Part shown: positions 1 through 40,311 of the stretch, piece after piece
Position numbering within the stretch: the first letter of the stretch is position 1
Layout of the letters: each line of letters starts with the position of its first letter
IMG/VR virus record: IMGVR_UViG_3300048115_000173
Span: 1-40,311 of that record
Length of the DNA: 40,311 bases
Source: a virus
Strand: one strand, 5' to 3'
Made by a program: the position numbers and the translations under genes
Notes under the pieces: model-generated
Databases searched by the model: none
The model's input: the letters and a program-made list of their open reading frames with translations, nothing else
Told to the model about the DNA's origin: nothing

Positions 1-314
1 AGTCAGGTATCAAAGGGTGGTCGGACGGAGGCGGTCTAGATGATGTAAACGAGAAGTTTAATATAAACGCCGTGTCTGTGAATGGAGCGCTTGACACGAC
101 TAGACCATATGGCAGCGACATGATTGGTTTGTATAACTGCAGCTATTTTACTGGCAATGGCGTAGACTCGGATGGACTTGGTGAAATTGGCTGGCACGTT
201 AATAATCGAAGCCTAAAAGGTAACTTGCAAGAACTCATAGTATACCCTGTAGAAGACACAGTTAACCGCACCGACATCGAAGACAACATTAACACTTTTT
301 ACGACATATATTGA
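1..314 (+). CDS. Tail fibre, C-terminal fragment (5' truncated by window edge)
   Basis: The reading frame is open from the first base and ends at TGA 312-314, so only about the last 103 residues are present. It is almost identical to the C-terminus of the 1143-aa fibre ending at 26992, with a few substitutions such as N for D in TGNGVD/TGDGVD, and both end INTFYDIY. By that match it is the distal part of the second lectin-like domain of the fibre. If phage A is circular, this is the true end of its fibre gene. Its stop overlaps the next ATG (TGATG), as in the second copy. Confidence 0.85.
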   Translation, partial: SGIKGWSDGGGLDDVNEKFNINAVSVNGALDTTRPYGSDMIGLYNCSYFTGNGVDSDGLGEIGWHVNNRSLKGNLQELIVYPVEDTVNRTDIEDNINTFYDIY

Positions 315-715
315 TGAACGGATTTATCATAGTCCTACCAACGGACACGCAGACAAGCGAGCGCAGAGCGTACCAAATCACGCGCGAACTCTACAACATC
401 TCTCGCCCCGTTTTGATACAGGCGGAAGGCGAAGCGGCTTTCACCGTCTTTGGAATTGTCGTACATCCTGACGGAGTACAGAACGCTTTGCAGGTGGACA
501 CAGATTACCTCATCAACGTTCACCCTGCCGCAAACCTCGAACGCCTCGTTGCTTGCTTCCCTGAGCTGTCGAATGATGAGCGGTATAGCCTGAGCAGTTA
601 CGTGCAAGTCAATCAAAAGTTTCCTTTCGGGCATATCGTGCCAAGCGATGTCACGATTCGAGATCAAGAGTATATGGACGATAACGGGTGGTTCCCCGAA
701 GACCCTGAACTATGA
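314..715 (+). CDS. Fibre-associated protein, 133 aa, unknown function (copy A)
   Basis: This small soluble protein starts MNGFIIVLPTDTQ and has no membrane segment. Its start overlaps the fibre stop by one base, so translation is probably coupled. A homologue follows the same fibre end at 26992. The two copies match nearly perfectly at the N-terminus and diverge at the C-terminus (DDNGWFPEDPEL versus EENGWFTDQPEID). I do not recognise the family. Its fixed place directly after the fibre suggests a fibre chaperone or fibre-tip accessory protein, which is inference. An upstream TTG at 311 is possible, but copy B begins at the equivalent ATG. Confidence 0.8.
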   Translation: MNGFIIVLPTDTQTSERRAYQITRELYNISRPVLIQAEGEAAFTVFGIVVHPDGVQNALQVDTDYLINVHPAANLERLVACFPELSNDERYSLSSYVQVNQKFPFGHIVPSDVTIRDQEYMDDNGWFPEDPEL

Positions 716-1074
716 AGGCAATAAAAATACTCTTTCTCGTAGTCCTCGCATTCGTAGCGATTCCCGTTGGGATCGTGTACTCGTTTGGCGAGTCGCTCTT
801 CTTTATTGCCTCAGATGTCCTCAGAAGCATTTGGAGAGCCATATACGACTTCTTTCGGGACGTGTCAATAATTGTATCAGTCACAGCGTCAAAGTTCCTC
901 AATCGGCTTCTGATGGATTCGGGGGTTCCTTTCGGAAATCATTCCGTTTCCGCAGTCCTGGGAGCCAACCAACGAGAACGAACTCTCACGGGTCTCGGTT
1001 TATGGCTGACCTTGTTACTCGATAGCATCGAGAAGAACCATTGCCGCAAGGCATCCGAACGCGCAGGGATATGA
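712..1074 (+). CDS. Small membrane protein, unknown function
   Basis: A 120-aa protein with a strong hydrophobic N-terminal segment (about residues 4-26, IKILFLVVLAFVAIPVGIVYS) and a less hydrophobic remainder. It has ATGA overlaps with the genes on both sides, which supports it being translated. The N-terminus could be a signal anchor. It lies between the fibre-associated gene and a head-tail type protein in the structural operon, so a virion or injection role is possible but unproven. There is no counterpart after the second copy of the 133-aa gene, which marks where phages A and B diverge. Confidence 0.6.
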   Translation: MKAIKILFLVVLAFVAIPVGIVYSFGESLFFIASDVLRSIWRAIYDFFRDVSIIVSVTASKFLNRLLMDSGVPFGNHSVSAVLGANQRERTLTGLGLWLTLLLDSIEKNHCRKASERAGI

Positions 1075-1631
1075 GCAAAGTCAACGAGACACTGATAGCG
1101 TTTGCAGATGATATCCTCAAGAGTGCGAAGAGGCATCTCGGAGGGCGTAGGATCGGCAAGAATAAGAATTACGGAGTCGCTACGGGTACGCTCAAGCGGT
1201 CTCTCAATTATCGCGTCCGGGTACGTGGTAACGAGATACGAGAAATCAGTTTCGGAGCTAAAGGCAAAGCGAAGAAGTACGCTCCCTTTATTCACTTTGG
1301 AGTGAACGGCACTCGCAAGAATCAAGGGTCTCCGTTTACGTTTCGCAAACAACCCCCGTCCTCCGTTTTTGTGAAGTGGATCAAAGCCAAAGGAATCAAG
1401 CTCAGAGATGACCAGGGGCGGTTCAAGAAGAACACGAAGAGCAATATTAACTCCGCTGCTTTCCTTATGGCTAGAGCGGTCAAACGTAAGGGAATTGTCG
1501 GTCTTCGGTTCTATGAGAAAGCATATACAGCGGTGAGCAAACGATACACCAAGAAACTCGGAGCAGCATTCGCGGAAGATATCGCGGGTAAATTCAAAGC
1601 TAACCTCGGAAACATAACGATAAAGAACTAA
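1071..1631 (+). CDS. HK97 gp10-like head-tail/neck protein
   Basis: A basic 186-aa protein. The pattern YAPFIHFGVNGTRKN (about 79-93), a PFTFRKQPP stretch and a C-terminal ARAVKRKGIVGLRFYEKAY helix resemble HK97 gp10-like tail completion proteins as found in Bacteroidetes phages. The family acts at the head-tail interface or tail terminus. I chose the ATG at 1071 because it overlaps the preceding stop (ATGA). An in-frame ATG at 1041 would extend it into the previous gene. The long ORF on the opposite strand here is a shadow. Confidence 0.65.
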   Translation: MSKVNETLIAFADDILKSAKRHLGGRRIGKNKNYGVATGTLKRSLNYRVRVRGNEIREISFGAKGKAKKYAPFIHFGVNGTRKNQGSPFTFRKQPPSSVFVKWIKAKGIKLRDDQGRFKKNTKSNINSAAFLMARAVKRKGIVGLRFYEKAYTAVSKRYTKKLGAAFAEDIAGKFKANLGNITIKN

Positions 1632-2887
1632 TGGCATCAATTGACGCAGGACCGCAGGAAGGTTGGAGACCAGCCGGGCAAAAACTATTGTTCACCCTTA
1701 TCCCGGATGAGACGGTTGATGACGCTTATCGCTATATCGTACAGGTAGAGGAGAATGGGACGATCATCTCCAAAATCTATTTGACTCCCAACCCAACCAA
1801 TAACGCCTTTTTTGATTTGTCCGAAGTCATAGCGGGACGGTTGGAAGTGGATTCTTTGAAGTACAACACAACCTCGACGATTCACTCGTTCCATAACAAG
1901 ATGTTCACCCGTTCGAATGACAATATCAACAGGTATCGTTTGAAGATTGGATATTTTGACGGAAGCACGGAATTTCTTGCTGAAGATACTTCCGGATATT
2001 ACTATCTATTTGACGGATACGAGCAGCTTTCCCAAGGGTTGTTTCCTTCGTTCGCTGATTACTACGGGACAGCATCAACAAAGAAGGTTTGGTTGACAGA
2101 TCGTGAACCCGTGAACAATGTCATCGAGGTAAGTGCAGGGATTGAAGATAACGGGGTTGCAGCGTTTATCAATAGCGACGATACCGGGTCACTCATCACG
2201 AGGCTTGTAATAAACACCTACGACACCGCGGGGAGTATTGACGATACAATCATCTACACGGTAAACGGAACCAATGGAGGACTTGTTCCAACTACCTCTT
2301 GGAGCGATTCAAATAACGATGGGAGTCTTCTCTATGCTTATGTCTATCCCAGTTCATTGAGCGCGATCACGAACGCCCTGAATGCGGTCACTGGCGGTTG
2401 GGGTCATTACGATATAATCCCGGAAACGGCATCCGCGCAAACGGGAAACATTCTCCGCATCCGTAACAATTGCAGGAACACAAAGAACGAGCCTGTCCAA
2501 TTGGCATGGGCGAACACTCGGGGCGGGTGGGACTATATCCGTTTCAATGGAAAGAAACAAAAGACGGTCACTCGCGAAGAGAAGACCTATCGCAAAATTG
2601 TAGGAGATTACAGCGCCTCCCAATTCAGCCTCGCTTCAAGCGCACGCGAAATTAAGCCGTACCAACTCGAAGCCAAAGAGACCTATCAACTCAATAGCGT
2701 TCTCACCATTGAGGAGGTCACTTTACTTCAATACTGCATGAGGTCAAAGAATGTCATGGCACGAATCGACGGGACTTGGGTTCCTGTAACCATCCAAACC
2801 AACTCGATGCAAATCGAAGAGGAAACGGTCTCGAAGGTGTTCATCACTTCGTTCAATGTTGAACTCGCACAAATTATCCGATGCTAA
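1631..2887 (+). CDS. Virion structural protein, 418 aa, unknown
   Basis: It starts in a TAATG overlap with the previous gene and overlaps the next by 7 bases, so it belongs to the tail/structural operon. The sequence is rich in Thr, Ser, Asn, Asp and aromatic residues with alternating beta-like patterns (RYIVQVEENG, VIEVSAGIED) and has no membrane segment or enzyme motif. It looks like a beta-rich tail or baseplate component. I do not recognise a named family. Its place between a gp10-like protein and another large structural protein supports a virion role. Confidence 0.6.
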   Translation: MASIDAGPQEGWRPAGQKLLFTLIPDETVDDAYRYIVQVEENGTIISKIYLTPNPTNNAFFDLSEVIAGRLEVDSLKYNTTSTIHSFHNKMFTRSNDNINRYRLKIGYFDGSTEFLAEDTSGYYYLFDGYEQLSQGLFPSFADYYGTASTKKVWLTDREPVNNVIEVSAGIEDNGVAAFINSDDTGSLITRLVINTYDTAGSIDDTIIYTVNGTNGGLVPTTSWSDSNNDGSLLYAYVYPSSLSAITNALNAVTGGWGHYDIIPETASAQTGNILRIRNNCRNTKNEPVQLAWANTRGGWDYIRFNGKKQKTVTREEKTYRKIVGDYSASQFSLASSAREIKPYQLEAKETYQLNSVLTIEEVTLLQYCMRSKNVMARIDGTWVPVTIQTNSMQIEEETVSKVFITSFNVELAQIIRC

Positions 2888-5094
2888 GACTCACCCTTGC
2901 AGGAAACGAAATTGAACTCTACGAGAACGAGCCTGTCAACCTGAGCTATCAGTTCTCCGATATTCAGAATATCAACGCTTCATCAAGTAGCTTTTCGCAG
3001 ACCTTCCGCGTACCACTCACCAAGAAGAATCAGGATTACTTCGGGGCGGTGAATGAGTTCGGTCTTATTACGACATGGGATCCGAAGACTAAGGTGGACG
3101 CGGAACTCACTTACAACACGATCCCTGTCATGCGCGGCTTTGCTCAGGTGAAAGCGGTATACGTTCAGAAAGGCAAATATGCAGACGTTGAAATCGCGGT
3201 ATTCGGTGAGACGGCTAATCTCTCACGGGATATCGGGGACGGGATGCTCACTGACCTCAACTTGTCTTCTTACGATCACACGCTCAACGCTACGAATATA
3301 GAAGCGAGTTGGGCGGGTAATTTATCCAGCTCCGTAATACGTTACGGACTGCCTGACAAGGGTCAGAATTGGACCTCTTCCAACCTATGGACGGAAGACA
3401 ACCCACTCGAACACGGAGACTTCACGCCATACTTCCAAGCCTCGAAGTTATTTGAGGAGATAATGACAGCAGCAGGATATACCTACGACTCAACTTTCTT
3501 GAGTAGGATGAGCGATGTATATCTCGCTCTATACAACGGCAATTTGGCAATCAAGGGTAACAGAAACCCGCAAGCGCAAACGGCTTTTGTTGGGTATTCC
3601 GCAGACGTTACTGGGTTAAGCTCAATAACCTTTGCCAACCTGACCGGATTCTCTGAATCGGCTCCCTTTTACGATAGCGATAATAATTTCAACGGCACAA
3701 CATACACAGCACCTTTTCGCGCTTATTACACTTTTCGCGTTTATGTACATGGGGAAATTGACCACCTCACGAACACGACACTGACAATGCGACTCGCGAA
3801 AGGAGGCTCGACGTTTTTAGCGACTATCATCGACAACCTGACCGGAGCTTTTTTCAATGATGAGTCTTTCGTCGTTTTAACCGACCCCATTCTTTTGAAT
3901 CAAGGTGACGCAGTATCTCTTCAGTACGCTTTAGCCAACTCAGGTCACACGGTAGACTTTACCGGGACTAATCAACTGGGAGCGGGTGGAACAGGTTTTG
4001 AAGTTGTAGAGATATCCGGAGCAACGAGCGGACAAACAGTCGACGTTTCGGCCAATATGCCACAGATGAAACAAATCGATTTCATCTCAGGACTTCAGAA
4101 GATGTTCAATCTTGTATTCATTCCGGATCGTAACAATTCAAAACATCTCTCGGTTGAGCCGTTCAACGACTACATGAGCAGCGGAGCGCAGAAAGATTGG
4201 ACGAACAAGATTGACCTCTCGAAAGACATCACCATTGCACCCACGACAGACCTCCAAGCGAGGCAGTACGATTGGACGCATTCCAACGGGAAAGACCTTA
4301 TCAACGACATAGTGTTCAAAAACGCTTCTCGGGTCTATGGAAGATACCGAGTTGATGACCCAGAGAACGACTTCGCTTCAGGCAACAAAGAGATAAAGTC
4401 ACCCTTTGCGCCTCATGTCGTTTCATACATTCCCGGCACGCAGTACGCAGTTCATAGGATGTTGATTGATACGGAGCAGGACGATAAGACTATCAAAGAC
4501 CCGCTCCCGCGTTTGGCGTTTTGGAACGATCAACAGACGGGGACAATCTACTATCAGAACGATGACAATGATGATACCACTACAGACACTGAATATCCGG
4601 CTTTCTCGCAGTTCTCAGACCTTGAGGCAAGCGTATCAGATGAAGACCTCGGGTTCGGTGCGGAGCGTCCATTCCATATCGTAGAAGCCAACCCATTGAA
4701 TACCCTTTATTACACTTATTGGAGACCGTTCGTCAATGAGTTGTATTCCTCAGACGCTCGCAAGCTCACTGCGTTCTTCAGGCTCACACGCTCCGAATTA
4801 GCAACGTTCGAGTTCTCGGATAAGGTCTATATCAAAGACACGTATTGGAGGATTCTATCTATCTCCTATGACGCGACAAGTGAAGACCTCGTGAAGGTGG
4901 AACTTTTGAAAGTTTTGGGAGATATCCGCGACTGTCAATTCATCCCGTTTGGTATCGATAAGGCAGACGGGAAGATTCAATTCACCAACCTAAGCGGACA
5001 GACGGTCGTTCAGGTGACTCGCGTTTGCTGCGAGCGATACGGGTATTTCTATGATAACGCTTCATCCAACTGCTTCCAACCCTTTGAACAATGA
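2881..5094 (+). CDS. Large virion structural protein, 737 aa (baseplate/tail-hub-like)
   Basis: The 737-aa beta-rich protein begins with an IELYENEPVNLSYQFSDI-type segment followed by SFSQTFRVPLTKKN, a style seen in large structural proteins of Bacteroidetes phages and prophages. The last ~50 residues are Cys-rich (a Cys, then CC, then a final Cys near the end), which may form a metal- or disulfide-stabilised tip. It could play the role of the 798-aa protein of phage B, as both precede the lysis block or tape measure in their operons. No catalytic motif was seen, so the exact role is inferred. Confidence 0.55.
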   Translation: MLRLTLAGNEIELYENEPVNLSYQFSDIQNINASSSSFSQTFRVPLTKKNQDYFGAVNEFGLITTWDPKTKVDAELTYNTIPVMRGFAQVKAVYVQKGKYADVEIAVFGETANLSRDIGDGMLTDLNLSSYDHTLNATNIEASWAGNLSSSVIRYGLPDKGQNWTSSNLWTEDNPLEHGDFTPYFQASKLFEEIMTAAGYTYDSTFLSRMSDVYLALYNGNLAIKGNRNPQAQTAFVGYSADVTGLSSITFANLTGFSESAPFYDSDNNFNGTTYTAPFRAYYTFRVYVHGEIDHLTNTTLTMRLAKGGSTFLATIIDNLTGAFFNDESFVVLTDPILLNQGDAVSLQYALANSGHTVDFTGTNQLGAGGTGFEVVEISGATSGQTVDVSANMPQMKQIDFISGLQKMFNLVFIPDRNNSKHLSVEPFNDYMSSGAQKDWTNKIDLSKDITIAPTTDLQARQYDWTHSNGKDLINDIVFKNASRVYGRYRVDDPENDFASGNKEIKSPFAPHVVSYIPGTQYAVHRMLIDTEQDDKTIKDPLPRLAFWNDQQTGTIYYQNDDNDDTTTDTEYPAFSQFSDLEASVSDEDLGFGAERPFHIVEANPLNTLYYTYWRPFVNELYSSDARKLTAFFRLTRSELATFEFSDKVYIKDTYWRILSISYDATSEDLVKVELLKVLGDIRDCQFIPFGIDKADGKIQFTNLSGQTVVQVTRVCCERYGYFYDNASSNCFQPFEQ

Positions 5095-5276
5095 GGAATC
5101 TTGACAATCATCGTTATATAGGAGAAGCGATCCAATTACTCCAGAACAAAGGCGAGAGGGTTCATGTCCCGCTTTGGTTCAAGGTGTTGGACTGGTTCCT
5201 TACTTTCGGTTACATCTTCGGACTTGCTTACCTTCTTTATCTATCAATTAAATGGCTACTGAAAATATCGTTCTAA
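5091..5276 (+). CDS. Small single-span membrane protein
   Basis: A 61-aa protein with one hydrophobic segment near the C-terminus (about residues 30-55, FLTFGYIFGLAYLLYLSIKWLL). It starts in an ATGA overlap with the 737-aa gene, and its end overlaps the start of the tape-measure-like gene by 25 bases. The tight coupling on both sides argues for translation. Function is unknown, possibly tail-tip or inner-membrane interaction. Confidence 0.55.
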   Translation: MRNLDNHRYIGEAIQLLQNKGERVHVPLWFKVLDWFLTFGYIFGLAYLLYLSIKWLLKISF

Positions 5277-6835
5277 AAGTATCAGCAGACACCAGCGATG
5301 TTACAAGGTCAATTGATAAAGTTGGCGAAAGCGTCGACGGGACGAGTTCTGCTGTCGGAGGCTTAACAGGACAACTCGACAAGATGACCGGAGGAGCCGT
5401 GACAGGCTTTCGAAATATGGTCGGAGGGTTAAAGGGTGGGGTCGCTGGATTGAAGTCATTTAAAGTTGCTCTTGCTGCAACCGGAATCGGTCTTCTTCTT
5501 GTCGCTATCGGCTCGCTTGTTTCCTTTTTCACAAGCACAAAGAGAGGAGCGGAGCAACTCAAAGTCGCAACGCAAGCACTTGGAGCCGCGTTCGATGTTA
5601 TCCGGGATCGTATCTCCAAAGTCGGTGGGGCGTTGGTGAAGTTTTTCACGGGTGACTTCAAAGGCGCGTTGGATGATGTAAAGGGCGCATTCACGGGAAT
5701 TACCGACGAGATTATTCGAGAGACCAAAGCCGCGGGAGACTTACAAAAGGCAATGAACGCTCTCAAGGACGAAGAGCGGGACTTCATTAAACAACGCGCA
5801 GAGACAAACAAACTCATCGCAGAAGCTCGCCTTCTCGCTGAAGATGACACCCTCGCAGTTGAGGAACGTATCGAAGCACTTCAACGGGCGGTTGACCTCG
5901 AACAAGAGACGGTCGCACGTCAAATCGAATTAGCTGAAGAGAGGGCGAGGATAGCACGGGAACAAGTCGCACTCGGGGAAAGCATGGAGGAAGATTTGCA
6001 AGCGGTTGCAGAAGCAGAGGCGGCAGTCATTGACTTGCAAACGGCATCCCTTCGAACACAGAAGAGACTGCAAACAGAACTCAACTCGCTGAAGGTGGAG
6101 GGCATCACCAAGGCACACGAGGCAATGAAGGCAGAAATCGACCTCGCGAATGCGACGGTCAAGGCTATGGAGGAGCGAAAGAAAGCCGAACAAGGTACAC
6201 TCCAAGTGACCCAGGAAACAGCAGAAGCAACGCTCCAAACACGGACGCAGAACTTCGCAGATCAAGTCCTCGGGTCACAGACCACAGAGGAACAAATTCG
6301 CCAACAACGACGAGAGACATTTGAGGACTTCAAAAACAACGCAGAACTCGCAGCACATCAAGGACTCCAATTCGCAAGTTTGAGTCTGCAAGCGGTTGGC
6401 GCATTATCAGAGGCATTCACCAAAGACGATGAGAAGCGAGCAAAGCGAACGTTTGAGATAGGTAAAAAGCTCGCTATAGTTCAAGCGGTAATGAACACGG
6501 CTGAGGGTGTTACAACCGCACTCACCGATAAGACACAACCTTCGACCCTTCTCCGTATTCTTCAAACGGCAGCAGTTGCCACGGCTGGAGCCGCTCAAAT
6601 TGCCACAATCAAACGGCAGGAATTCAACGCGGGCGGGTCTGCATCTATCGGAGCCGTATCACAAAACGCAAGAGGAACGACAGGAGCGATTCCGCAAAGT
6701 CCACAACTCGACCTCGGGTTCTTAGGAGCCGGAGCCGGACAAGCAGGCTTTAGGAGTTACGTAATAGCCTCGGAAGTATCGAACAGCCAACAGGCGAACC
6801 AACGAATTAACGATCAAGCATCATTAGTAGGATGA
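5252..6835 (+). CDS. Tape-measure-like tail protein, 527 aa (phage A)
   Basis: Gly/Ala/Val-rich N-terminus (VGGLTGQLDKMTGGA), a hydrophobic segment around residues 70-92 (KVALAATGIGLLLVAIGSLVSFF), then a long Glu/Ala/Lys/Gln-rich alpha-helical coiled-coil stretch from about 160 to 400, and an Ala/Gly-rich tail. This is the usual profile of tape-measure proteins, which set tail length and enter the host envelope. At 527 aa it would specify a fairly short tail. It stands directly upstream of the capsid protease gene (ATGA overlap), an unusual position for a tape measure. Confidence 0.7.
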   Translation: MATENIVLKVSADTSDVTRSIDKVGESVDGTSSAVGGLTGQLDKMTGGAVTGFRNMVGGLKGGVAGLKSFKVALAATGIGLLLVAIGSLVSFFTSTKRGAEQLKVATQALGAAFDVIRDRISKVGGALVKFFTGDFKGALDDVKGAFTGITDEIIRETKAAGDLQKAMNALKDEERDFIKQRAETNKLIAEARLLAEDDTLAVEERIEALQRAVDLEQETVARQIELAEERARIAREQVALGESMEEDLQAVAEAEAAVIDLQTASLRTQKRLQTELNSLKVEGITKAHEAMKAEIDLANATVKAMEERKKAEQGTLQVTQETAEATLQTRTQNFADQVLGSQTTEEQIRQQRRETFEDFKNNAELAAHQGLQFASLSLQAVGALSEAFTKDDEKRAKRTFEIGKKLAIVQAVMNTAEGVTTALTDKTQPSTLLRILQTAAVATAGAAQIATIKRQEFNAGGSASIGAVSQNARGTTGAIPQSPQLDLGFLGAGAGQAGFRSYVIASEVSNSQQANQRINDQASLVG

Positions 6836-7782
6836 ACATAATTGAACTCATAATCGACGAAGAAGCGGAGATGTACGGAATCGACGCTATCTCTCTCGTA
6901 GAACAACCCGCCATCGAGTCTGACTTCGTAGCTCTCAAGAACGAACAGATACAATTCAAGACCCAAGACAACGAGAAGCGTCTTGTCATGGGTGCGGCAC
7001 TTATTCCAGACAAACCCATCTACCGAAAGAACGGGGATGAGGAATATTACGTGTATTTTTCAAAGAAGACCGTCCGACGAGCGATGGAACTCTACTTCAA
7101 AAACGGCAATCAAGCGAACGCGACCCTTGAACACGAGCATACGTTGAACGGGTTGCACGTTGTTGAGAGTTGGATCGTCGAAGGAGAGCAGGACAAATCC
7201 CGGATGTATGGACTCGATGTCCCGGTCGGTACGTGGATGGTCTCAATGAAGGTCGATAACGATGCTATTTGGGAGAAGTACGTGAAGGAAGGCAGCGTGA
7301 AAGGGTTCTCGATTGAAGGATTCTTTACGAACAAGTACGAACTCGCAAAGGCAACCGTCAAAAAGGACAAGCGATATAAAGAGGGACAGCGCGTCGATAT
7401 GGAGTCCTACAACGATTACCCCGACGGAGTAAAGAACAACGCAAGGAAGGCGGTAGAATACGCTGAGAAGAACGGGTGGGGGTCGTGTGGAACGGGAGTA
7501 GGAAAGCAACGAGCGAACCAACTCGCAAAGGGTGAGAATATCAGCGTCGAAACCATCAAGCGGATGCGGTCTTATCTGATCCGTCATGAAGCGGACTTGG
7601 AGTCCTCGACCTCATTCTCTGACGGATGCGGGTACCTCATGTATATGGCTTGGGGCGGAAAAGCTGCTCTTCGTTGGTCGGAATCCAAACTCAAGGAATT
7701 GGAGCTTCTGTCAGCTATCGAAGTAGAACTCGGACTCGATTATTTAAAAAATCACCTAACGAGTAAGGATTCAGGTTCTTAA
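6832..7782 (+). CDS. XkdF-like prohead serine protease with fused C-terminal domain
   Basis: Residues ~15-170 carry the features of XkdF-like phage prohead proteases: LVEQPAI near 22-28, YVYFSKKTVRRAMELYFK, the His motif NATLEHEHTLNG (His101/His103) and the Ser motif VKGFSIEGFF (Ser160). The enzyme would cleave scaffold and capsid N-termini during maturation. Residues ~195-285 form a second module (YPDGVKNNARKAVEYAEKNG, VGKQRANQLAKG, IKRMRSYLIRH, GYLMYMAWGG) that I recognise as a recurrent phage head-protein domain of unknown function. Scaffold and major capsid genes follow immediately. Confidence 0.8.
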   Translation: MNIIELIIDEEAEMYGIDAISLVEQPAIESDFVALKNEQIQFKTQDNEKRLVMGAALIPDKPIYRKNGDEEYYVYFSKKTVRRAMELYFKNGNQANATLEHEHTLNGLHVVESWIVEGEQDKSRMYGLDVPVGTWMVSMKVDNDAIWEKYVKEGSVKGFSIEGFFTNKYELAKATVKKDKRYKEGQRVDMESYNDYPDGVKNNARKAVEYAEKNGWGSCGTGVGKQRANQLAKGENISVETIKRMRSYLIRHEADLESSTSFSDGCGYLMYMAWGGKAALRWSESKLKELELLSAIEVELGLDYLKNHLTSKDSGS

Positions 7783-7808
7783 ATCGTTATATATAAAAAC
7801 CCCAGAAG

Positions 7809-9364: not shown

Positions 9365-9371
9365 TTCATTC

Positions 9372-22461: not shown

Positions 22462-22485
22462 CCAAACAAACGAAACAAACAGATA

Positions 22486-27396: not shown

Positions 27397-27405
27397 CTTG
27401 CAGGC

Positions 27406-27573: not shown

Positions 27574-27574
27574 A

Positions 27575-30523: not shown

Positions 30524-30526
30524 GCC

Positions 30527-33126: not shown

Positions 33127-33245
33127 TTTGGATTATCTTAGCAACCATAACCGTCAACGTCATATATAAGGCTCGCGAGTACGGTAGGGCAGACGTTGCG
33201 GATTTAATTATATTGATTGCCGCCTGCGCACTGTTATGGAACTAA
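33123..33245 (+). CDS. Tiny hydrophobic lysis-region peptide, 40 aa
   Basis: It starts in an ATGA overlap and ends 10 bases into the endolysin gene. It has two hydrophobic stretches (MIWIILATITVNVIY and LIILIAACALLW) around a charged turn KAREYGRAD, so it could be a hairpin membrane peptide of the holin or antiholin kind. No counterpart exists in phage A, where the endolysin follows directly. Confidence 0.5.
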   Translation: MIWIILATITVNVIYKAREYGRADVADLIILIAACALLWN

Positions 33246-33619
33246 GGTATTTCCGCTTTGAAGAATTTGACTGCAAGTGCAAGAAATGCCGCACAAATTC
33301 TGAGGGCCTTGGTATCGACATAATGGACATGGATTTTTTGATGATGCTGGACGACGCCCGCCACAAAGCTGGCGTACCGTTTCGGATCAGCTCAGGCGTG
33401 AGATGCAGCGCACACAATCGGGCGAGCGGCGGAAAGAAAGACAGCGCCCACCTTGACGGCTTGGCGGTTGATATTGTATGCAGTGACAGCAGAACGCGCG
33501 GCTATATCCTTGGCGCACTTTACGAGGCGGGATTTAACCGCATTGGCATTCACAAGGACTTCATACACGTGGACGATCACCCCGCAAAAGATGCGGATGT
33601 AGTTTGGTTATATGACTAA
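33236..33619 (+). CDS. M15-family peptidoglycan peptidase (endolysin, phage B)
   Basis: A 127-aa M15 peptidase with FDCKCKKC near the N-terminus (an extra Cys cluster absent from phage A), SSGVRC, zinc motif AHLDGLAVD (His72, Asp79) and FIHVDD (His111, Asp113). It degrades peptidoglycan at lysis. It shares only moderate similarity with the phage A enzyme although gene order is the same, and it overlaps the phosphoesterase gene by 8 bases. Confidence 0.9.
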   Translation: MELRYFRFEEFDCKCKKCRTNSEGLGIDIMDMDFLMMLDDARHKAGVPFRISSGVRCSAHNRASGGKKDSAHLDGLAVDIVCSDSRTRGYILGALYEAGFNRIGIHKDFIHVDDHPAKDADVVWLYD

Positions 33620-34325
33620 GGACATACGCCCACGGATCAACGCCCAGCAGATGCGTGCGCTGGACTACCTAAGAACAAAGGAGCGGCGTATTTTGGTTAT
33701 AGGTGATTTGCATGAGCCTTTTTGTAAGGAAGGTTATTTGCAGCATTGCATTGATACATATGACAGGTTTAACTGCAACCAAGTTTTGTTTATCGGTGAT
33801 TTACTTGATAATGCATTTGCGTCTTTTCATGAGACACGCGCCGAACTGCCAGCAGGACAGGACGAGTTAGATTTTGCCATTGCAAAGGTGCAAGAGTGGT
33901 ACAAAGTATTCCCGATTGCAACCATTATAACGGGAAACCATGACCGCATAATAGCGAGAAAATTAGTGCGTGGCGGAGTCCCTCAAAAATGGCTGAAATC
34001 ATATAACGAAGTTTTAGGAACTCCAACATGGGATTGGACAGAGCGCGCAGTATTTGACGAAGTGCAGTACGTGCATGGTGAGGGCGGCAGCGCACGCACC
34101 AAATGCAAAAACGATATGATGAGTACGGTTCAAGGCCATATACACACCCAGTGCTATGTCGAATATAATACAGGCTCAAAAATCGTGTTTTCCATGCAAA
34201 TCGGGTGCGGCGTCGAACGTGAAGCGCTGGCTATGAGTTATGCGAAGGCTTTCAAAACTCAGCAAATTGCCTGCGGCGTGGTCATAGGTGGGCATACGGC
34301 AATAAATTGTTTAATGCCGCTTTAA
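33612..34325 (+). CDS. Calcineurin-like metallophosphoesterase (phage B)
   Basis: A 237-aa enzyme with metal-binding blocks GDLHEP (31-36), GDLLDN (62-67), GNHD (108-111), YVHGEGG and GHIH near 174. It is divergent from the phage A enzyme but has the same order of motifs and genomic position. The motif forms (GDLHEP, GNHD) are nearer to small phage phosphoesterases. The substrate is unknown. Confidence 0.85.
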   Translation: MTKDIRPRINAQQMRALDYLRTKERRILVIGDLHEPFCKEGYLQHCIDTYDRFNCNQVLFIGDLLDNAFASFHETRAELPAGQDELDFAIAKVQEWYKVFPIATIITGNHDRIIARKLVRGGVPQKWLKSYNEVLGTPTWDWTERAVFDEVQYVHGEGGSARTKCKNDMMSTVQGHIHTQCYVEYNTGSKIVFSMQIGCGVEREALAMSYAKAFKTQQIACGVVIGGHTAINCLMPL

Positions 34326-34348
34326 TACCTTGCACTAAATTTTACATT

Positions 34349-34534
34349 ATGGGTGAATTGATACAAACTTATTGGGCCGAGATCGTTTTGGCTCTTATGG
34401 CATTTGTGAAGGTTATTGTAAACCTTACGCCAACAGAAGCAGATAACAAAGTATTTGGATGGCTAGACACGCTAATAAGCGCAATCGTAAGCGACAGGCG
34501 AAAGGAACGCCGAGAAGCGCGAAAAAATGACTAA
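34349..34534 (+). CDS. Small membrane protein at the end of the late operon (phage B)
   Basis: A 61-aa protein with one hydrophobic segment (YWAEIVLALMAFVKVIVNL) and a very basic C-terminus (SDRRKERREARKND). It stands in the place of the phage A holin-like gene at 14015, before the terminator and early promoter. The single span plus basic tail is compatible with a holin-like role. The ATG at 34349 is chosen because an earlier in-frame start lies within the phosphoesterase gene. Confidence 0.6.
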   Translation: MGELIQTYWAEIVLALMAFVKVIVNLTPTEADNKVFGWLDTLISAIVSDRRKERREARKND

Positions 34535-34583
34535 CTTAGCCGAATAGGTTTGTTTCATAGTTTGTTTGCAAGTTGATTTAAAG

Positions 34584-34610
34584 GGCTGCCCAACGGGGTG
34601 GCCTTTTTTT
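34584..34610 (+). terminator. Rho-independent terminator ending the late operon (phage B)
   Basis: GGCTGCCC (34584-34591) pairs with GGGTGGCC (34596-34603) allowing two G-T pairs, with loop AACG, followed by seven T. It has the same position relative to the early promoter as the phage A terminator at 14495. Confidence 0.85.
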
Positions 34611-34648
34611 GTGCGCTAAAAAAAAATCAAAGTTTTTTACGAAAAAGC

Positions 34649-34678
34649 TTGCGTAACGAAATAAGTTGCGTATCTTTG
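34649..34678 (+). promoter_or_regulatory. Bacteroidetes-type early promoter (phage B operon)
   Basis: TTG (34649-34651), a 19-base spacer and TATCTTTG (34671-34678). The last 20 bases are identical to the phage A promoter. An in-frame ATG at 34666 lies inside the promoter, so translation must begin at the ATG at 34708, behind a CAAACAAACAACACTACC leader. Confidence 0.9.
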
Positions 34679-34707
34679 ACTCAGTCAAACAAACAAACAA
34701 CACTACC

Positions 34708-34971
34708 ATGAATTACTCAATCCAACAACTTCAAGACCTTGACGATAAGTTAGTTATAAGTGGTGATTCAACTTCAATTGACTACATTCAAGGCGGTAAA
34801 TACGTTATGGAAGGCGTATTGAAACCAGCTCAAGCAATTGTGAAGTATCGAGATTGGTTAGTTGTTTTAGAAGATTGCGGAAACGGTTTTGAACCAATAA
34901 GCGCACGCAACACAATGACAGGAACAGAGTACAATAACCCAATGCAATGGTTTTCAAATAAAGTAAAATGA
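34708..34971 (+). CDS. First early gene of phage B, 87 aa, unknown
   Basis: It begins MNYSIQQLQDLDDKLVISG and is closely similar over its whole length to the cassette 2 protein at 22486 in phage A. It is the first gene after the early promoter and is coupled (ATGA-type overlap) to a tiny acidic ORF. No known domain. High conservation between otherwise diverged phages, and two genomic contexts, suggest that it is valuable and mobile. Confidence 0.8.
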   Translation: MNYSIQQLQDLDDKLVISGDSTSIDYIQGGKYVMEGVLKPAQAIVKYRDWLVVLEDCGNGFEPISARNTMTGTEYNNPMQWFSNKVK

Positions 34972-35084
34972 TGTGGCGCGAAGGATACGACTACCCAGCA
35001 GACGACGAAGACGAAGGCCGTGACTTCTTTGAAGAGGCCGACGAACAACATGACAAATACCAAGACGAAAAACTCGACCAATGA
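34968..35084 (+). CDS. Tiny acidic protein, 38 aa
   Basis: It starts in an ATGA overlap with the previous stop and ends in an ATGA overlap with the next gene. The peptide MMWREGYDYPADDEDEGRDF is followed by more Asp/Glu residues. Both overlaps support translation. The extreme acidity recalls DNA-mimic or inhibitor peptides, but that is only a suggestion. Confidence 0.5.
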   Translation: MMWREGYDYPADDEDEGRDFFEEADEQHDKYQDEKLDQ

Positions 35085-35323
35085 AGAACACAAAGAGAGA
35101 ATTTTTAAGTGCAGCAAAAAAGCGCCAAGGTTTTAAGACTTGGTTCATAGAACAAGAAGCACATTCACGTGACTACGTTATAGAAATATCCGTTGATAAT
35201 GGTTATACAATAGGCGATAATCAATGTACTTCAGAACGGGTGCACGTCTTGCGTGAAGAGTTAACAATTTCGGACGGTTGGCGTTTAGCTGTCAAAGCCT
35301 TGCAGACTATAAAACAAAAATAA
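35081..35323 (+). CDS. Early protein, 80 aa, unknown
   Basis: A small basic N-terminus (MKNTKREFLSAAKKRQGF) and a mixed alpha/beta remainder (DYVIEISVDNGYTIGDNQ, then SDGWRLAVKALQTIKQK). It is coupled to the acidic peptide upstream and followed by the PICVRSSV-family gene. No family recognised. Confidence 0.6.
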   Translation: MKNTKREFLSAAKKRQGFKTWFIEQEAHSRDYVIEISVDNGYTIGDNQCTSERVHVLREELTISDGWRLAVKALQTIKQK

Positions 35324-35328
35324 CAGTA

Positions 35329-35478
35329 ATGAAAAAACCTATTTGCGTGCGCAGCAGCGTACAAGTAACAGCCCCGACGTCATTCAACCAATGGCAGCAA
35401 GACCTAGCCGAGGAACGCGAGTTTCTGCGCTTGATTGACAAGATGAAAATGCACCTAAAGCAAAACCGAGAGAAATGA
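35329..35478 (+). CDS. Small conserved early protein, 49 aa (PICVRSSV family, phage B)
   Basis: MKKPICVRSSVQVTAPTSFNQW followed by an acidic-basic helix (EEREFLRLIDKMKMHLKQ) aligns with the 57-aa protein at 15487. The start at 35329 is preferred because it leaves the conserved core near the N-terminus. It is coupled by overlap to the primase-domain gene. Confidence 0.65.
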   Translation: MKKPICVRSSVQVTAPTSFNQWQQDLAEEREFLRLIDKMKMHLKQNREK

Positions 35479-35999
35479 ACGTTGAAACAATACAAGTAAG
35501 TTCATGCCGTGGCGCGTTTGATCGCGAAACAAGGCGCGTGTACCTAATGGAGTGGCTTGAACACGTACGGCCTGACGTCATGATAAACGACTACAACAAG
35601 AAGCAGCTGCCTGCGATCATGCCGCACGGTGTATTTTACAGCCGCAGACAGGACACAATCCAGCAGCACAGCGGTCTAGTACAGGTTGACATAGACGGCA
35701 AGCACCAACGCGGTGGCTTTGATCCTGAGAACTTAGCGCGAGATATGGAGGCCGCGCCCTACATCGTAGCGGGTGGCATTAGCTGCATGGGCGAGGGTTG
35801 TTATATGCTAATTGCAGTCGAAGGCATCGACCAAAACAACCACAGGGAAAAGGCCAGCCGCGTCATGGATCTAATTGAAGAACAGTTCAACGTAGTGGTG
35901 GATGTGCCCGTTTCAAACAATTTAAGCAGCCTGCGCTTTGCGTCAGGGTATGCACCCTTCATTAATTACGACGTCAAACCATTAAAATTCGAGTCATGA
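35475..35999 (+). CDS. BT4734-like primase-polymerase domain protein
   Basis: A 174-aa protein. NKKQLPAIMPHGVFYSRRQD, then HSGLVQVDIDGKHQ with VDID at 71-74, and SNNLSSLRFASGYAPF match the BT4734/VirE-type N-terminal domain, a small primase-polymerase-like fold in Bacteroidetes mobile elements. Here it stands alone without the helicase part. It may make primers for phage replication. The phage A early region has no equivalent. Confidence 0.7.
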   Translation: MNVETIQVSSCRGAFDRETRRVYLMEWLEHVRPDVMINDYNKKQLPAIMPHGVFYSRRQDTIQQHSGLVQVDIDGKHQRGGFDPENLARDMEAAPYIVAGGISCMGEGCYMLIAVEGIDQNNHREKASRVMDLIEEQFNVVVDVPVSNNLSSLRFASGYAPFINYDVKPLKFES

Positions 36000-36370
36000 A
36001 CAACACCGATGAACTGCGGGCGCTGTCCGAGAAGTACGACATGCAGCCTGATCACTTCCACAAAGACCCGCGCGGCTTTGTCATTATGACGCGCAGAGGC
36101 GTCGAACACTTGCAAGCTAAAATAAAGGCCACAGTGCGCTTTTCTACCGTAGCTGAATACTCAGACCCGAAAGAGGGGAGATATTGCATTAAAGCCTACG
36201 CAAAATGCGAAATAGGGCAAGTAGAGACGTATGGCGAAAGCAGCAAAGCAAATAACCGAAACGCTTACCCGATTGCCATGGCGGAAAAACGCGCTTTGTC
36301 ACGTGCCATTTTGAAGCTTGCAGGCTTTTACACTGCTGGCGTGTATGGCGAAGATGAAATTGATGAATAG
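35996..36370 (+). CDS. Putative single-strand annealing protein (Rad52/ERF-like)
   Basis: A 124-aa protein with HFHKDPRGFVIMTRRGVEHL, a KAYAKCEIGQVETYGESSK strand region and NAYPIAMAEKRALSRAILKLAG, which resembles the C-terminal signature of Rad52/ERF-type annealing proteins and related ones in Bacteroidetes. The context with an SSB-like protein and a nuclease supports a recombination role. Assignment is moderate. Confidence 0.5.
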   Translation: MNNTDELRALSEKYDMQPDHFHKDPRGFVIMTRRGVEHLQAKIKATVRFSTVAEYSDPKEGRYCIKAYAKCEIGQVETYGESSKANNRNAYPIAMAEKRALSRAILKLAGFYTAGVYGEDEIDE

Positions 36371-36641
36371 CCTTTATGAGTTTTTTGATAGCGTAGACGC
36401 TGACCATGCCGATGAGGTTGAAAGCATGAAAGACTACGCATTACACCTGCTCAGCACGTCCACAATGAAGGACGACGATGACGGGTTAGAAGATGAAATA
36501 ATAGACACAGACCCAACGCCAAGCCGCTGGCGTGAGATATTTGAGCGGCTACGATTAAACCAGTTGCGTGCAATCGACTTGCCCAACTGTTCACAAACTG
36601 AATTCACTAAATCATATAAAAAACATGGAATTGATTATTGA
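36363..36641 (+). CDS. Acidic early protein, 92 aa, unknown
   Basis: Strongly acidic: LYEFFDSVDADHADEVESM, then DDDDGLEDEIIDTDP, followed by a helix (WREIFERLRLNQLRA). It overlaps both neighbours. The start could be the ATG at 36354 or 36363. I do not recognise it. The acidic centre is a possible protein-interaction tail. Confidence 0.5.
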   Translation: MNSLYEFFDSVDADHADEVESMKDYALHLLSTSTMKDDDDGLEDEIIDTDPTPSRWREIFERLRLNQLRAIDLPNCSQTEFTKSYKKHGIDY

Positions 36642-36966
36642 GGGAGTTATTAAGCGCGTTTGCAAACCGATGGAATTTGAAAGCGGCTTTAGGAAGTGCG
36701 AAGTACACGTTGAAATCCAAGACGGGAAATACCCGCAGACCTTGGCGCTGGAGTTTCTGAAAGACGACGTAGATGAAGCCGTTGCATTGCCTGAAGGCAA
36801 GACGATCAAAGCACGGTGCAACGTACGCGGCAGCGAATGGCAAAAGGATGAAACATCGCCATTGATTGTATTTATGTCGCTAGTGCCTTGGAAGTATGAG
36901 ATAGTAGAAGGCAATCCAGCACCAACCCAACAACCTGCAAAAGATGGCGCAGATTTCCCTTTCTGA
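36625..36966 (+). CDS. DUF3127-type SSB-like protein (phage B)
   Basis: A 113-aa protein: MELIIEGVIKRVCKPMEFES, GFRKCEVHVEIQDGKYPQTL, then RCNVRGSEWQ and FMSLVPWKYE. This is the DUF3127 family of small OB-fold proteins, widespread in Bacteroidetes and likely single-strand DNA-binding. It ends in ADFPF, like the acidic/aromatic tips of SSB proteins that recruit partners. The start at 36625 was chosen to match family length. Confidence 0.8.
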   Translation: MELIIEGVIKRVCKPMEFESGFRKCEVHVEIQDGKYPQTLALEFLKDDVDEAVALPEGKTIKARCNVRGSEWQKDETSPLIVFMSLVPWKYEIVEGNPAPTQQPAKDGADFPF

Positions 36967-37153
36967 TGTGCGGTATATCGTTAAGCTACCAAAGCAAAAC
37001 ACGCGCGTCACGTTTGAGAACTATGGCAGCTTTGCCAAGTACGTCGAGGATCTGCGCACCAAGCAAATAAAACATGAACTTCATATTGAATACGATGAAT
37101 CTGAGACAGTTTATAAAGCAACATTACAAGACGGTAGACAGGTGCGCGGATGA
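36944..37153 (+). CDS. Small early protein, 69 aa, unknown
   Basis: It overlaps the SSB-like gene by 23 bases and the HTH gene by 59. It reads MAQISLSDVRYIVKLPKQNT, then FENYGSFAKYVEDLRTKQIK and a beta end (DESETVYKATLQDGRQV). Composition looks coding. No family recognised. Confidence 0.5.
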   Translation: MAQISLSDVRYIVKLPKQNTRVTFENYGSFAKYVEDLRTKQIKHELHIEYDESETVYKATLQDGRQVRG

Positions 37154-37319
37154 TCTTGGCGTAACCCGCCGCACGGTAGAAAATTACTGTTTCCGTAACC
37201 CGTCAGGCATATTGAAGCACAGTGGTCAAATCATACAGCTGGACGGCGTGGAGCCGTTGCAGCTATTCGACGCGGTAGCCGCGTCCATGGAGCAAATCAA
37301 CGAGAACCGCCCGAAATGA
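37095..37319 (+). CDS. Small helix-turn-helix protein (phage B)
   Basis: A 74-aa protein: VDRCADDLGVTRRTVENYCF is a helix-turn-helix, followed by NPSGILKHSGQIIQL. It corresponds to the phage A protein at 16328 in layout and in its place upstream of the initiator. The ATG at 37095 (MNLRQF) was chosen over 37074 by this comparison. Confidence 0.65.
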   Translation: MNLRQFIKQHYKTVDRCADDLGVTRRTVENYCFRNPSGILKHSGQIIQLDGVEPLQLFDAVAASMEQINENRPK

Positions 37320-37828
37320 TATGGCAAAAGCTTACAACCGATGAAATGGCCTTTGCATACGAAACAGGCAAGGACGTCATACAGGCAAAAATGAAAAACA
37401 ATCATACAGGCAACAATGAACTCAGTAAGTATGCTGGTTACGTTGGTCAGGTCGCAGCAATGAAGTACCTAAAGGCGGTAAACATTGACGATTATGAGTA
37501 TGATTTGGAGCGCAATGGCAAACGCATAGAAGTAAAAACAAAGGTGCGGAACAGACTACCCGATCCGAATTTTGCGGCTTGTGTTTATGCATCAAATGCG
37601 GATCAGCTTTGTGACGTGTATTTGTTTATGCAGGTAATGAAACGCGCAGACAACCCAAAAAAGTTAATGCACGGCGCTTACTTGCTTGGGTGGATTGATC
37701 GCGGCCTGTATAATGAACGGTTTTACCAAGTGCGTAAAGGTGATAAAGACGGCAAATATTACACAGAGCCAGCCGACGCGTTTAAAATTGAGCTGCGTGA
37801 TTTACGCCCAATTGACGAGCTAAAATGA
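37316..37828 (+). CDS. PD-(D/E)XK-like nuclease
   Basis: A 170-aa protein. GYVGQVAAMKYL, then DYEYDLERNGKRIEVKTKVRN with Asp63 and Glu72-Val-Lys74, is the core of a PD-(D/E)XK restriction-endonuclease-like fold. It may process recombination or replication intermediates or act as an endonuclease on host DNA. It is coupled by ATGA overlap to the initiator gene. No equivalent was seen in phage A. Confidence 0.65.
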   Translation: MIWQKLTTDEMAFAYETGKDVIQAKMKNNHTGNNELSKYAGYVGQVAAMKYLKAVNIDDYEYDLERNGKRIEVKTKVRNRLPDPNFAACVYASNADQLCDVYLFMQVMKRADNPKKLMHGAYLLGWIDRGLYNERFYQVRKGDKDGKYYTEPADAFKIELRDLRPIDELK

Positions 37829-38568
37829 AGCGTAAAGGCATATACATACCGCTGGAGTTGTGGAATCTTGGCGAGTTGCATCCTAATGAACGGGTGTTGC
37901 TTGCTGAGGTTGCCAGCTTTGAGGACAAGAACAAACCATGCTTTGCAGGAAACGAACACTTTGCCCAACTGCTTAACGTATCAACGGCCACGGCACGGGG
38001 CTATATTTCCAAGCTTGTAAACGCTGGTTTTCTAGTCCGAGAGGGTGACAGATACAACAGACGACTGCGTAGATTAGCGCAAACGAGTGCGCAGAATAGC
38101 GCAGACGAGTGCGTAGATTCACGCAGACGAGTGCGTAAATCCGCGCAAACGAGTGCGCAGAATTCAGCACATACTATATCAACTACTATATCAACTACTA
38201 ATACATCTACTAATAGTGCAAAAGTGTTGAATGTTGTTTTGCCGTTTCAATCGGAAAAATTTGAGGCGGCATGGAACGAATGGAAAGAGTACAAACAAAC
38301 AGACCACAGATTCAAATACAAATCCCACAAAAGCGAACAACGGGCACTAATCAAACTACAAAATGAACACACCAACGAAAACGACGCAATCGACGCAATT
38401 CATACAGCAATTGCAAACGGATGGAAAGGCTTGGTATTTAACTCACCCAAAGGCGGGGGAGCTAACAAGCGGCGAGCGGATAACCTTGAAAGAGATGTCA
38501 ACCGCGAAAAGCTTGCAGAATTTGCAAGAACTGGACGTATCACGCCTGACGGTGGAAACGTGCTTTAA
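37825..38568 (+). CDS. Replication initiator-like protein with intragenic iterons (phage B)
   Basis: A 247-aa protein. Winged-helix-like N-terminus (IYIPLELWNLGELHPNERVL, HFAQLLNVSTATARGYISKL), a low-complexity linker (about 78-130) encoded by the iterons and an A+T-rich stretch, and a C-terminal domain with EAWNEWKEYKQTDHRFKYKS and AIHTAIANGWKGLVF. Same layout as the phage A initiator at 16575 although sequence identity is low. Expected to bind the iterons and start replication. Its 3' end overlaps the partner gene. Confidence 0.75.
   Translation: MKRKGIYIPLELWNLGELHPNERVLLAEVASFEDKNKPCFAGNEHFAQLLNVSTATARGYISKLVNAGFLVREGDRYNRRLRRLAQTSAQNSADECVDSRRRVRKSAQTSAQNSAHTISTTISTTNTSTNSAKVLNVVLPFQSEKFEAAWNEWKEYKQTDHRFKYKSHKSEQRALIKLQNEHTNENDAIDAIHTAIANGWKGLVFNSPKGGGANKRRADNLERDVNREKLAEFARTGRITPDGGNVL
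38055..38158 (+). repeat. 22-bp iteron array inside the initiator gene: candidate origin (phage B)
   Basis: Four 16-bp units of form (G/A)CGCA(A/G)ACGAGTGCG(C/T) start at 38077, 38099, 38121 and 38143, exactly 22 bp apart. A degenerate fifth unit is in phase at 38055. Most have inverted arms GCGCA/TGCG(C/T). Because 22 is not a multiple of 3, the same DNA is read in different frames in successive units, so DNA sites, not a peptide, are conserved. An A+T-rich tract with repeated CTATATCAACTA follows at about 38172-38220. Confidence 0.8.
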
Positions 38569-39070
38569 AGGCACTAACGTGCGCACGGCATTAGTATGCG
38601 ACGAAGCACCAACACGGGCCGCGCTGATCGGTATGCTAGGCCGCTGCGTCAAGTTTATCGACGCGAACAAGACACTAACAGAACCCGAACACATTGCAAT
38701 GACGGTGAATGAGCTTGTACAGCAATTTCCAACGTTTACGCTTGAAGATTGGCGCCTGTGCCTGTACATGATGGCGAAAGAGAGCTTTGGACCGTACTAC
38801 GAACGCCTAAAGTTGGCGCAGTTTGTCGACTGCTTCACCAAGTACGACCAACTGAAGCAGCCAGTAATTCAAACCATACGCGAGAACGAACGCAAAGAGG
38901 CAGAGCGGATGCAGCAGGAAGCTATGAGGCATTTGCAGCCCGAATACGTTACTCAAATTAACCCTGTGGCATCAAGGGTTCACCCAGCCGATTGGATGGC
39001 AGGAGAGGACCGCTTAACGTACACAGAGCGCGATGAGATGCAGAAACGACAGAATCAAAACAGTAAATGA
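38495..39070 (+). CDS. Conserved initiator-partner protein, unknown (phage B)
   Basis: A 191-aa protein homologous to that at 17161: FKGTNVRTALV, GRCVKFIDANKTLTEPEHIA, EDWRLCLYMMAKESFGPYYERLKLAQFVDC. The ATG at 38495 gives nearly the same length and gene overlap (74 bases) as in phage A. A start at 38363 would add 44 residues that look like a shadow of the initiator frame. No ATPase motif. A replication accessory role is inferred from linkage to the initiator in both phages. Confidence 0.65.
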   Translation: MSTAKSLQNLQELDVSRLTVETCFKGTNVRTALVCDEAPTRAALIGMLGRCVKFIDANKTLTEPEHIAMTVNELVQQFPTFTLEDWRLCLYMMAKESFGPYYERLKLAQFVDCFTKYDQLKQPVIQTIRENERKEAERMQQEAMRHLQPEYVTQINPVASRVHPADWMAGEDRLTYTERDEMQKRQNQNSK

Positions 39071-39453
39071 CACCAATCGAACAATTTTGGGCGGACCTGA
39101 TGGATTCACGCCGCTACGCCATTACAGAAGTTTACGGCGCGGAATGTGCAAGCCGTTACAGGCCGCACCACATGGAAAAGGAGTATTTTATAAACAACAG
39201 CGGCACGTTCACAGCGCACCCTGATGTTTCACGATATAACGAGGATTTTTGGGATATGTGCAACAAACATTACGGAGAGCAACGCGAGGCATACAGGCGG
39301 AAACTACGGGCGAACTGGCACAGGGTACAGCAGTCCGATGAATACAAAAGCCGTAAGCGTGAGCGCGAAATGTTAAAGGACTACATTAGCCAAGCAATTA
39401 ACGGCAATGGCAAAGAAGCAGACGCACGCACAACTAAAGAAAAAGGTAGATGA
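39067..39453 (+). CDS. Protein of 128 aa, unknown
   Basis: It starts in an ATGA overlap with the partner gene and overlaps NinG by 47 bases. It is charged and aromatic-rich (IEQFWADLMDSRRYAITEVY, RYNEDFWDMCNKHYGEQREAY), with a basic helical end (SRKREREMLKDY). No family recognised. It is inserted between partner and NinG, which are adjacent in phage A. Confidence 0.6.
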   Translation: MTPIEQFWADLMDSRRYAITEVYGAECASRYRPHHMEKEYFINNSGTFTAHPDVSRYNEDFWDMCNKHYGEQREAYRRKLRANWHRVQQSDEYKSRKREREMLKDYISQAINGNGKEADARTTKEKGR

Positions 39454-39844
39454 GTGGTTTAGCAAGCACATCAGATGGAAAGCGGCAGATCTACGCGGAA
39501 ACTGTACGTGTTACACCTGCGACCGAGTCCATCACGCATCTAAGATCCATGCAGGGCATTTTCTCAGCCGAAGGCACATGGCTACTAGGTGGGAGGAATC
39601 TAACGTTAAGCCGCAATGCTTTGCCTGCAATATTCACAACCAAGGAGAACAATGGATTTTTGGCTGCCGTATTGAAAGCGAAAACAGAGGACGAACTGCG
39701 CAGCTTATGCAACAAGCGAACGAAGGTAGAAAGTTCAAGATACAGGAGCTTCAGCACCTATTCGAGTATCATAGGACCGAGGCGCTCAAGTACGCAGAGC
39801 GGAAAGACGTCATGCCTAAGCGAAAAGCAAAGGCGAAGGTATGA
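39407..39844 (+). CDS. NinG/Rap-like recombination protein (phage B)
   Basis: A 145-aa protein with zinc and active-site residues as in phage A: CYTCDR (Cys35/Cys38), HAGHFL (His51), CFACN (Cys71/Cys74), followed by a helical part and a Lys/Arg-rich tail (MPKRKAKAKV). Probable Holliday-junction or branched-DNA endonuclease. Confidence 0.8.
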   Translation: MAKKQTHAQLKKKVDEWFSKHIRWKAADLRGNCTCYTCDRVHHASKIHAGHFLSRRHMATRWEESNVKPQCFACNIHNQGEQWIFGCRIESENRGRTAQLMQQANEGRKFKIQELQHLFEYHRTEALKYAERKDVMPKRKAKAKV

Positions 39845-39869
39845 TAAGCTAAGAGCGGAGCGCAATGAG

Positions 39870-39995
39870 TTGCTGGATGTGAGCATGGTGAGCAATATCA
39901 AAGCTTTAAACTATGGATCAAGATGGGAAAGGTTCAAGCGTATCAGCCATGAAATCTACCACCTGACCAAGCACCACGGTTATTACTATCAGTAA
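39870..39995 (+). CDS. Small ORF between NinG and HNH, start uncertain
   Basis: The frame is open well upstream inside NinG. Plausible starts are TTG 39870 (41 aa) or ATG 39885 (36 aa). The peptide MVSNIKALNYGSRWERFKRI followed by a His/Tyr-rich end looks coding and ends in a TAATG overlap with the HNH gene. Alternatively the real start is an unusual codon between the NinG stop and 39870. Confidence 0.35.
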   Translation: MLDVSMVSNIKALNYGSRWERFKRISHEIYHLTKHHGYYYQ

Positions 39996-40276
39996 TGCCT
40001 ACGATACCACGTAAGCAGACGCCCGATCCGAGGCGCAAAGGACGTAAGCGAGACACGCCACAAGATCGCAGATACTGGACTAACGCATGGCGTAAGAGTA
40101 GATTAGCATTCCTAAAGACTAACCCCGAATGCACAGGATGCGGCGGACCTGCCAACGTGGTGGATCACGTCGTGCCTGTGCGTCAAGGGGCTGAGTTCTT
40201 TGATGTGAGCAACTGGCAAAGCCTATGCACACCCTGCCATGCCTCCAAGTCAGGGCGAGAAGCACACGAGGGGTAG
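39995..40276 (+). CDS. HNH endonuclease (phage B)
   Basis: A 93-aa protein with CTGCG (Cys46/Cys49), VVDHVVP (Asp57-His58), Asn73 and LCTPCHASK (Cys78/Cys81-His82), a complete small HNH nuclease. HNH proteins of this size often precede terminase genes and stimulate cos cleavage by the packaging motor, so the phage B terminase genes may lie just beyond the window. The remaining 35 bases carry nothing identifiable. Confidence 0.85.
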   Translation: MPTIPRKQTPDPRRKGRKRDTPQDRRYWTNAWRKSRLAFLKTNPECTGCGGPANVVDHVVPVRQGAEFFDVSNWQSLCTPCHASKSGREAHEG

Positions 40277-40311
40277 CCCCCCGCAAAAACCTGAGCTAAA
40301 AGCGCCTGCAT

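Follow-up and report, generated by a model that had tools for sequence, protein, structure and literature searches.

The whole virus record of 40,311 bp, referred to here as the window, carries two sets of tail, lysis and replication genes, which raises the question of whether one phage or two are represented in it. The preliminary description had read the record as two phages joined. Analysis of the window and its relatives bears this out: the record is very probably a chimera, put together in assembly from two tailed phages that presumably shared a sample, in which phage A would be complete and phage B partial. Its 40-kb genome is thus an ordinary assembly artefact of a known kind. Taken at face value, the record would suggest a phage with two tails, and if counted as a 40-kb virus it would mislead statistics on genome size, completeness, taxonomy and gene content.

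Anatomy of the repeat and the junction

Bases 1-715 of the window had been described as recurring at an offset of 26678. Measurement confirmed the offset and placed the repeat at 1-709 and 26679-27387, with 91.3% identity over 709 bp. More telling is the exact prefix: the first 127 bases of both copies are identical and base 128 is the first mismatch. This is the longest repeat in the window, followed by one of 312 bp at 86.5% (22437-22742 and 34654-34964), and no second repeat joining the A and B halves at similar length and identity was found in the window. GC skew is 0.011 in A against 0.083 in B. The parts are as follows.

1-127, + strand: putative graph vertex, the 127-mer that opens the contig (same letters as 26679-26805; A and B differ from the next base)
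26679-26805, + strand: second copy of the 127-mer (end of A, where the path would exit into B)
1-26678, + strand: phage A, probably complete, circular map of 26,678 bp (exact 127-bp end overlap of 1-26805; gene order of G002)
26806-40311, + strand: phage B, partial, unique B sequence (gene order of closed G024, G044 and G045 and of near-complete G028)

For the window and the full-length relative contigs, the longest exact prefix or suffix recurring within the contig was determined. The value for the window is 127, its prefix recurring at 26679. Exact overlaps at both ends were found in G002, G024 and G044 (127 each) and in G042 and G045 (99 each), and other values were 127 in G010 (prefix), 126/127 in G011, 126 in G003 and 33 in G043. 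Of these, 33, 99 and 127 belong to the k ladder commonly used with metaSPAdes. Edges meeting at one graph vertex produce overlaps of exactly k, and judging from the letters of the contigs the exact 127-base overlap is the vertex signature of a de Bruijn assembly at k=127; for the window, this k is inferred from the end overlaps. A k=127 graph of circular A and the B part contains only one branching vertex, the 127-mer at 1 and 26679, and at smaller k the branch point would no longer fall on base 1. The junction lies within sequence common to A and B, and the overlap equals the inferred k. Among the relatives, G010 (L140, L141) runs on past the 127-mer that closes it, into an allele with 86% identity over about 310 bp, and is a nearly complete circle carrying a false tail.

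The shared 127-mer would be one vertex with two exits, one leading back into A and the other into B. The contig would have begun at the A exit, circled A once, left through the B exit and run to 40311, where the B path ended. Such a shared vertex can exist because the fibre tips of A and B are almost alike, with 8 differences in bases 1-378 (97.9% identity) followed by 54 differences in the next 331 bp (84%); the change point at 378 was equalled in strength in none of 500 permutations. The near-identical tips would likely stem from a recent recombination of the receptor-binding cassette between phages of one host.

Virome assembly is known to yield a small share of chimeric contigs (PMC5610896). 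In mock viromes they usually make up less than 2.5% of contigs and less than 5% of contigs of at least 10 kb (Roux et al. 2017, PMC5610896), and they are more frequent with metaSPAdes than with MEGAHIT (PMC5610896). The window resembles these virome chimeras in being a contig built from two genomes with a highly similar region, but differs from them in that one partner is a complete circle. Since the path comes back to the 127-mer from which it started, the A circle can be recovered exactly. Recurrence of an exact k-length prefix constitutes a read-free detector of such records that also recovers the hidden complete circular phage.

Phage A closes to a complete circle

Bases 1-26805 close through the 127-base overlap to a circle of 26,678 bp, the size proposed in the preliminary description and comparable to the 26.3 and 28.2 kb of A-type relatives that are closed. 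Gene order in A is that of G001-G003, including closed G002 (26,318 bp), and closed G042 (28,209 bp) has the same gene set as A. On the circle, the fibre gene (from 23561) is completed by 1-314 and followed by a gene for a protein of 134 amino acids (134-aa gene; 314-715 in A); the order fibre, 134-aa gene and A03 is also seen in G002 and G003. The main features are listed below.

1-314, + strand: 3' end of the A fibre gene (reading frame 3-314; continues from 26678 on the circle)
5252-6835, + strand: A tape measure (PHROG)
6832-7782, + strand: A head maturation protease (PHROG)
8405-9364, + strand: A probable major capsid protein (position; PHROG of unknown function only)
10398-12017, + strand: A portal (PHROG, 1.8e-90)
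16575-17246, + strand: A replication initiator, O-like (PHROG)
20562-20906, + strand: A TerS (PHROG)
21238-22398, + strand: A TerL, phrog_2 (PHROG; 43% to Flavobacterium phages)

A had been credited with a full set of essential genes. PHROG matches support the tape measure, protease, portal, TerS, TerL and initiator, while the capsid label rests on position, since the sole match of that protein is a PHROG of unknown function; a chaperone label for the 134-aa gene finds no support, this gene having no match in PHROG or Pfam. A combines identical closing ends with packaging, head, tail, lysis and replication genes, the capsid being assigned by position. Uncultivated A-type phages (IMG/VR G002, G041, G042 and kin) resemble A in gene order, in TerL (97-98%) and in circle size (26.3-28.2 kb). 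Compared with most of these A types, the fibre middle and the 134-aa gene of A are closer to B-type or A2-type phages. The A initiator protein contains repeated EATIVAK-like units.

Two prophages standing in tandem in a bacterial chromosome would also place two gene sets side by side, and tandem prophages exist. However, no integrase match was obtained among 20 window proteins compared with PHROGs and 10 compared with Pfam, scans that took in fewer than all of the small ORFs, and host genes were not seen in the window. Instead of an att site, the junction occupies part of a fibre gene, and the relatives are closed circles. This arrangement, which would be marked by an integrase, att sites and host flanks, is consequently considered extremely improbable.

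Phage B is partial

The genes from 27.4 kb onwards match B-type genomes in order, such as G028 and the closed circle G024 (23,754 bp), and closed G044 (22,653 bp) and G045 (22,823 bp) have the same gene set as G024 and G028. The B features are given below; phosphoesterase and HNH genes are also present.

27575-27988, + strand: B major tail (tube) protein (PHROG)
28595-30523, + strand: B tape measure (PHROG)
33236-33619, + strand: B M15 endolysin (PHROG)
37825-38568, + strand: B replication initiator (PHROG)
39407-39844, + strand: B NinG (PHROG)
40225-40311, + strand: B terS, first 87 bases, cut by the record end (90% over 29 amino acids to G028 terS)

Beyond the HNH gene, G028 and G024 carry terS, terL, portal, protease-capsid and connectors, and after these the fibre. 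The missing part of B, about 10 kb with terS, terL, portal, capsid, connectors and the fibre start, thus exists in circular relatives, and it contains just those essential genes that appear to be wanting in B. The 13.6 kb of B present (26679-40311) amount to about 57% of some 23.8 kb. Uncultivated B-type phages (IMG/VR G024, G028, G044 and G045) share the order of B from fibre to HNH and have circles of 22.7-23.8 kb, and it is against these phages that the window holds only about 57% of B. Exact patterns from the B continuation (40261-40311) and the fibre tip (26680-26712) had no match in other viral contigs, a search from which records very near the window were possibly excluded. The stretch of B fibre that would precede 26679 and the B head genes of this sample thus did not turn up, which counts against the chimera. 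A 40-bp direct repeat (90%; 38058-38097 and 38124-38163) lies inside the B initiator gene and recalls the iterons within lambda O.

A single phage with a genuine genome of at least 40 kb and two sets of tail, lysis and replication genes would agree with the presence of one contig in which every gene lies on the + strand. Against it, neither type needs the other set for its closed genomes to be complete, A closes on itself, and B is without packaging and head genes only because the record is cut in terS. No closed circle of about 50 kb holding both gene sets was found. We regard a single phage as hardly credible.

A and B core genes do not occur together in the relatives fetched

Roles had been reported to repeat after 27.4 kb with divergent proteins, and comparison of the duplicated roles agrees with this: amino acid identity between A and B is 40% for M15, 31% for the initiator, 32% for its partner and 39% for NinG, and homology between the two tape measures was not detectable. 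The best PHROG families of the terminases differ as well (2 for A against 9 for B-type). Outside the junction, A31/B09 (88%) is the only closely shared gene, the other shared genes found being 31-40% identical, and the head and most tail genes of A and B are not homologous. The earlier view of B as related to A therefore holds for the fibre tip, the 134-aa gene and A31/B09, which are close, and fails elsewhere, where the two are distant or non-homologous. A small gene with its upstream element (22437-22742 in A, 34654-34964 in B) keeps 86.5% DNA identity between otherwise dissimilar genomes and may be a second exchanged cassette.

That one phage would hardly carry both gene sets was also sustained. 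A TerL or the B tape measure brought in 129 loci, of which 80 carried the A core only, 49 the B core only and none both. The fibre tip fetched 70 loci (29 B only, 17 A only, 24 neither, none both), and no locus fetched by the 134-aa gene carried both core sets. Overall, A core and B core occurred together in none of 273 fetched loci and none of 22 full-length relative contigs. A few B types (L108, L112) do carry relatives of A03, which is not a core gene. Separate genomes matching each part were found, each complete alone: closed G002 and G042 for A, and closed G024, G044 and G045 for B. Together with the exact 127-base recurrence, these separate circles favour the joining of two phages.

The same two phages could have been joined in nature, homologous recombination in the shared tip fusing circular A and B, inside an infected cell, into a cointegrate of about 50 kb of which the contig is part. 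A near-identical A/B stretch long enough for recombination is present, and the region has evidently been exchanged among lineages. In such a fusion, however, only chance would account for the exact 127-base recurrence; none of the relatives contains a fusion of this kind, and with A-type and B-type relatives packaging 23-28 kb, a 50-kb fusion would be unlikely to be packaged. A real cointegrate is very unlikely, if slightly less so than one large phage or tandem prophages.

The fibre tip and the 134-aa gene are probably exchanged between lineages

On the reading of the record as an assembly chimera, the feature that joins A and B is the end of the fibre gene together with the adjoining 134-aa gene.

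23561-26992, + strand: assembled fibre gene (A fibre as far as the shared tip, with the final bases of B from 26806)
314-715, + strand: 134-aa fibre-linked gene, A copy, 133 amino acids (gene order of relatives; tree)
26992-27396, + strand: 134-aa fibre-linked gene, B copy (97% to B-type relatives)

Over its first 650 nt, the fibre gene has matches in A types alone of the 20 relatives compared. Fibre nt 1909-3001 are 92.3% identical to B-type G028 and less so to most A types, L178 being the exception with 90% up to fibre nt 2240. A search with the last 146 fibre residues found, among the best 80 loci listed, relatives only for the last 30-80 residues; for the rest of the tip there was no relative among viral contigs in these 80 loci. 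Fibre nt 2221-2663 form the last segment but one in the window and the terminal one in L152, at 95.5% identity. Fibre domains appear shuffled, which suggests stacking or swapping of tip domains.

On a tree built from 91 copies of the 134-aa gene, the labels of the lineages (L108 and L112 taken as B types and L193 as A2) need 24 changes against a minimum of 4. The A copy pairs with L152 (A2 type) at 99/98 support, outside an A clade of 18 rows. The cassette of fibre tip and 134-aa gene recurs in about four lineages, incongruent with the lineage phylogeny, and closed circles of both A and B types bear it. This pattern points to a receptor-binding cassette repeatedly exchanged between lineages, although the gene is short and some relatives may carry assembly errors. 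The 134-aa gene was absent from all phage records searched, and structure prediction for its protein gave a mean pLDDT of 49.8, too low for the model to be of use.

That two phages unrelated in other respects have almost the same fibre tip suggests a common host and exchange of receptor-binding parts. We give roughly even odds to a broader reading, in which small Bacteroidota phages (23-30 kb) of about four lineages, their head and tail genes partly or wholly unrelated, share a pool of fibre-tip cassettes. Each cassette would comprise a hypervariable lectin-like tip flanked by the conserved fibre end and the 134-aa gene, a possible recombination anchor, and A and B of this sample would have swapped the tip very recently.

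Host and cultured relatives

Among cultured phages, the top match to A TerL is the Flavobacterium phage FpV9/Fpv5 group (42.8%) and the top match to the B tape measure is Cellulophaga phage phi39:1 (37.8% over 42% of its length); a near-nucleotide search of cultured phages found no match to A or B. A Bacteroidota host is likely for both A and B, as far as sequence likeness can indicate. Scanning bacterial genomes with the 134-aa family gave one match, L296 (JAGYIQ010000025.1); this contig is from a B-like phage and had been binned in a Pirellulaceae MAG. Since the other evidence points to Bacteroidota, this contig is probably mis-binned and so gives no reliable host.

The element TTGNNTAACNAAANNANTTGCGTATCTT occurs four times, at 14561-14588, 20925-20952 and 22432-22459 in A and at 34649-34676 in B, with 0 copies expected by chance. 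Two of the four copies extend to TATCTTTG, and the other two are each one base off. The Bacteroidota -7 consensus is TAnnTTTG (PMC7366714), and TATCTTTG fits it. TTGNNTAACNAAANNANTTGCGTATCTT is promoter-like, resembling the Bacteroidota -33/-7 promoter, and three of its four copies lie upstream of small ORFs starting with MNYSI or similar.
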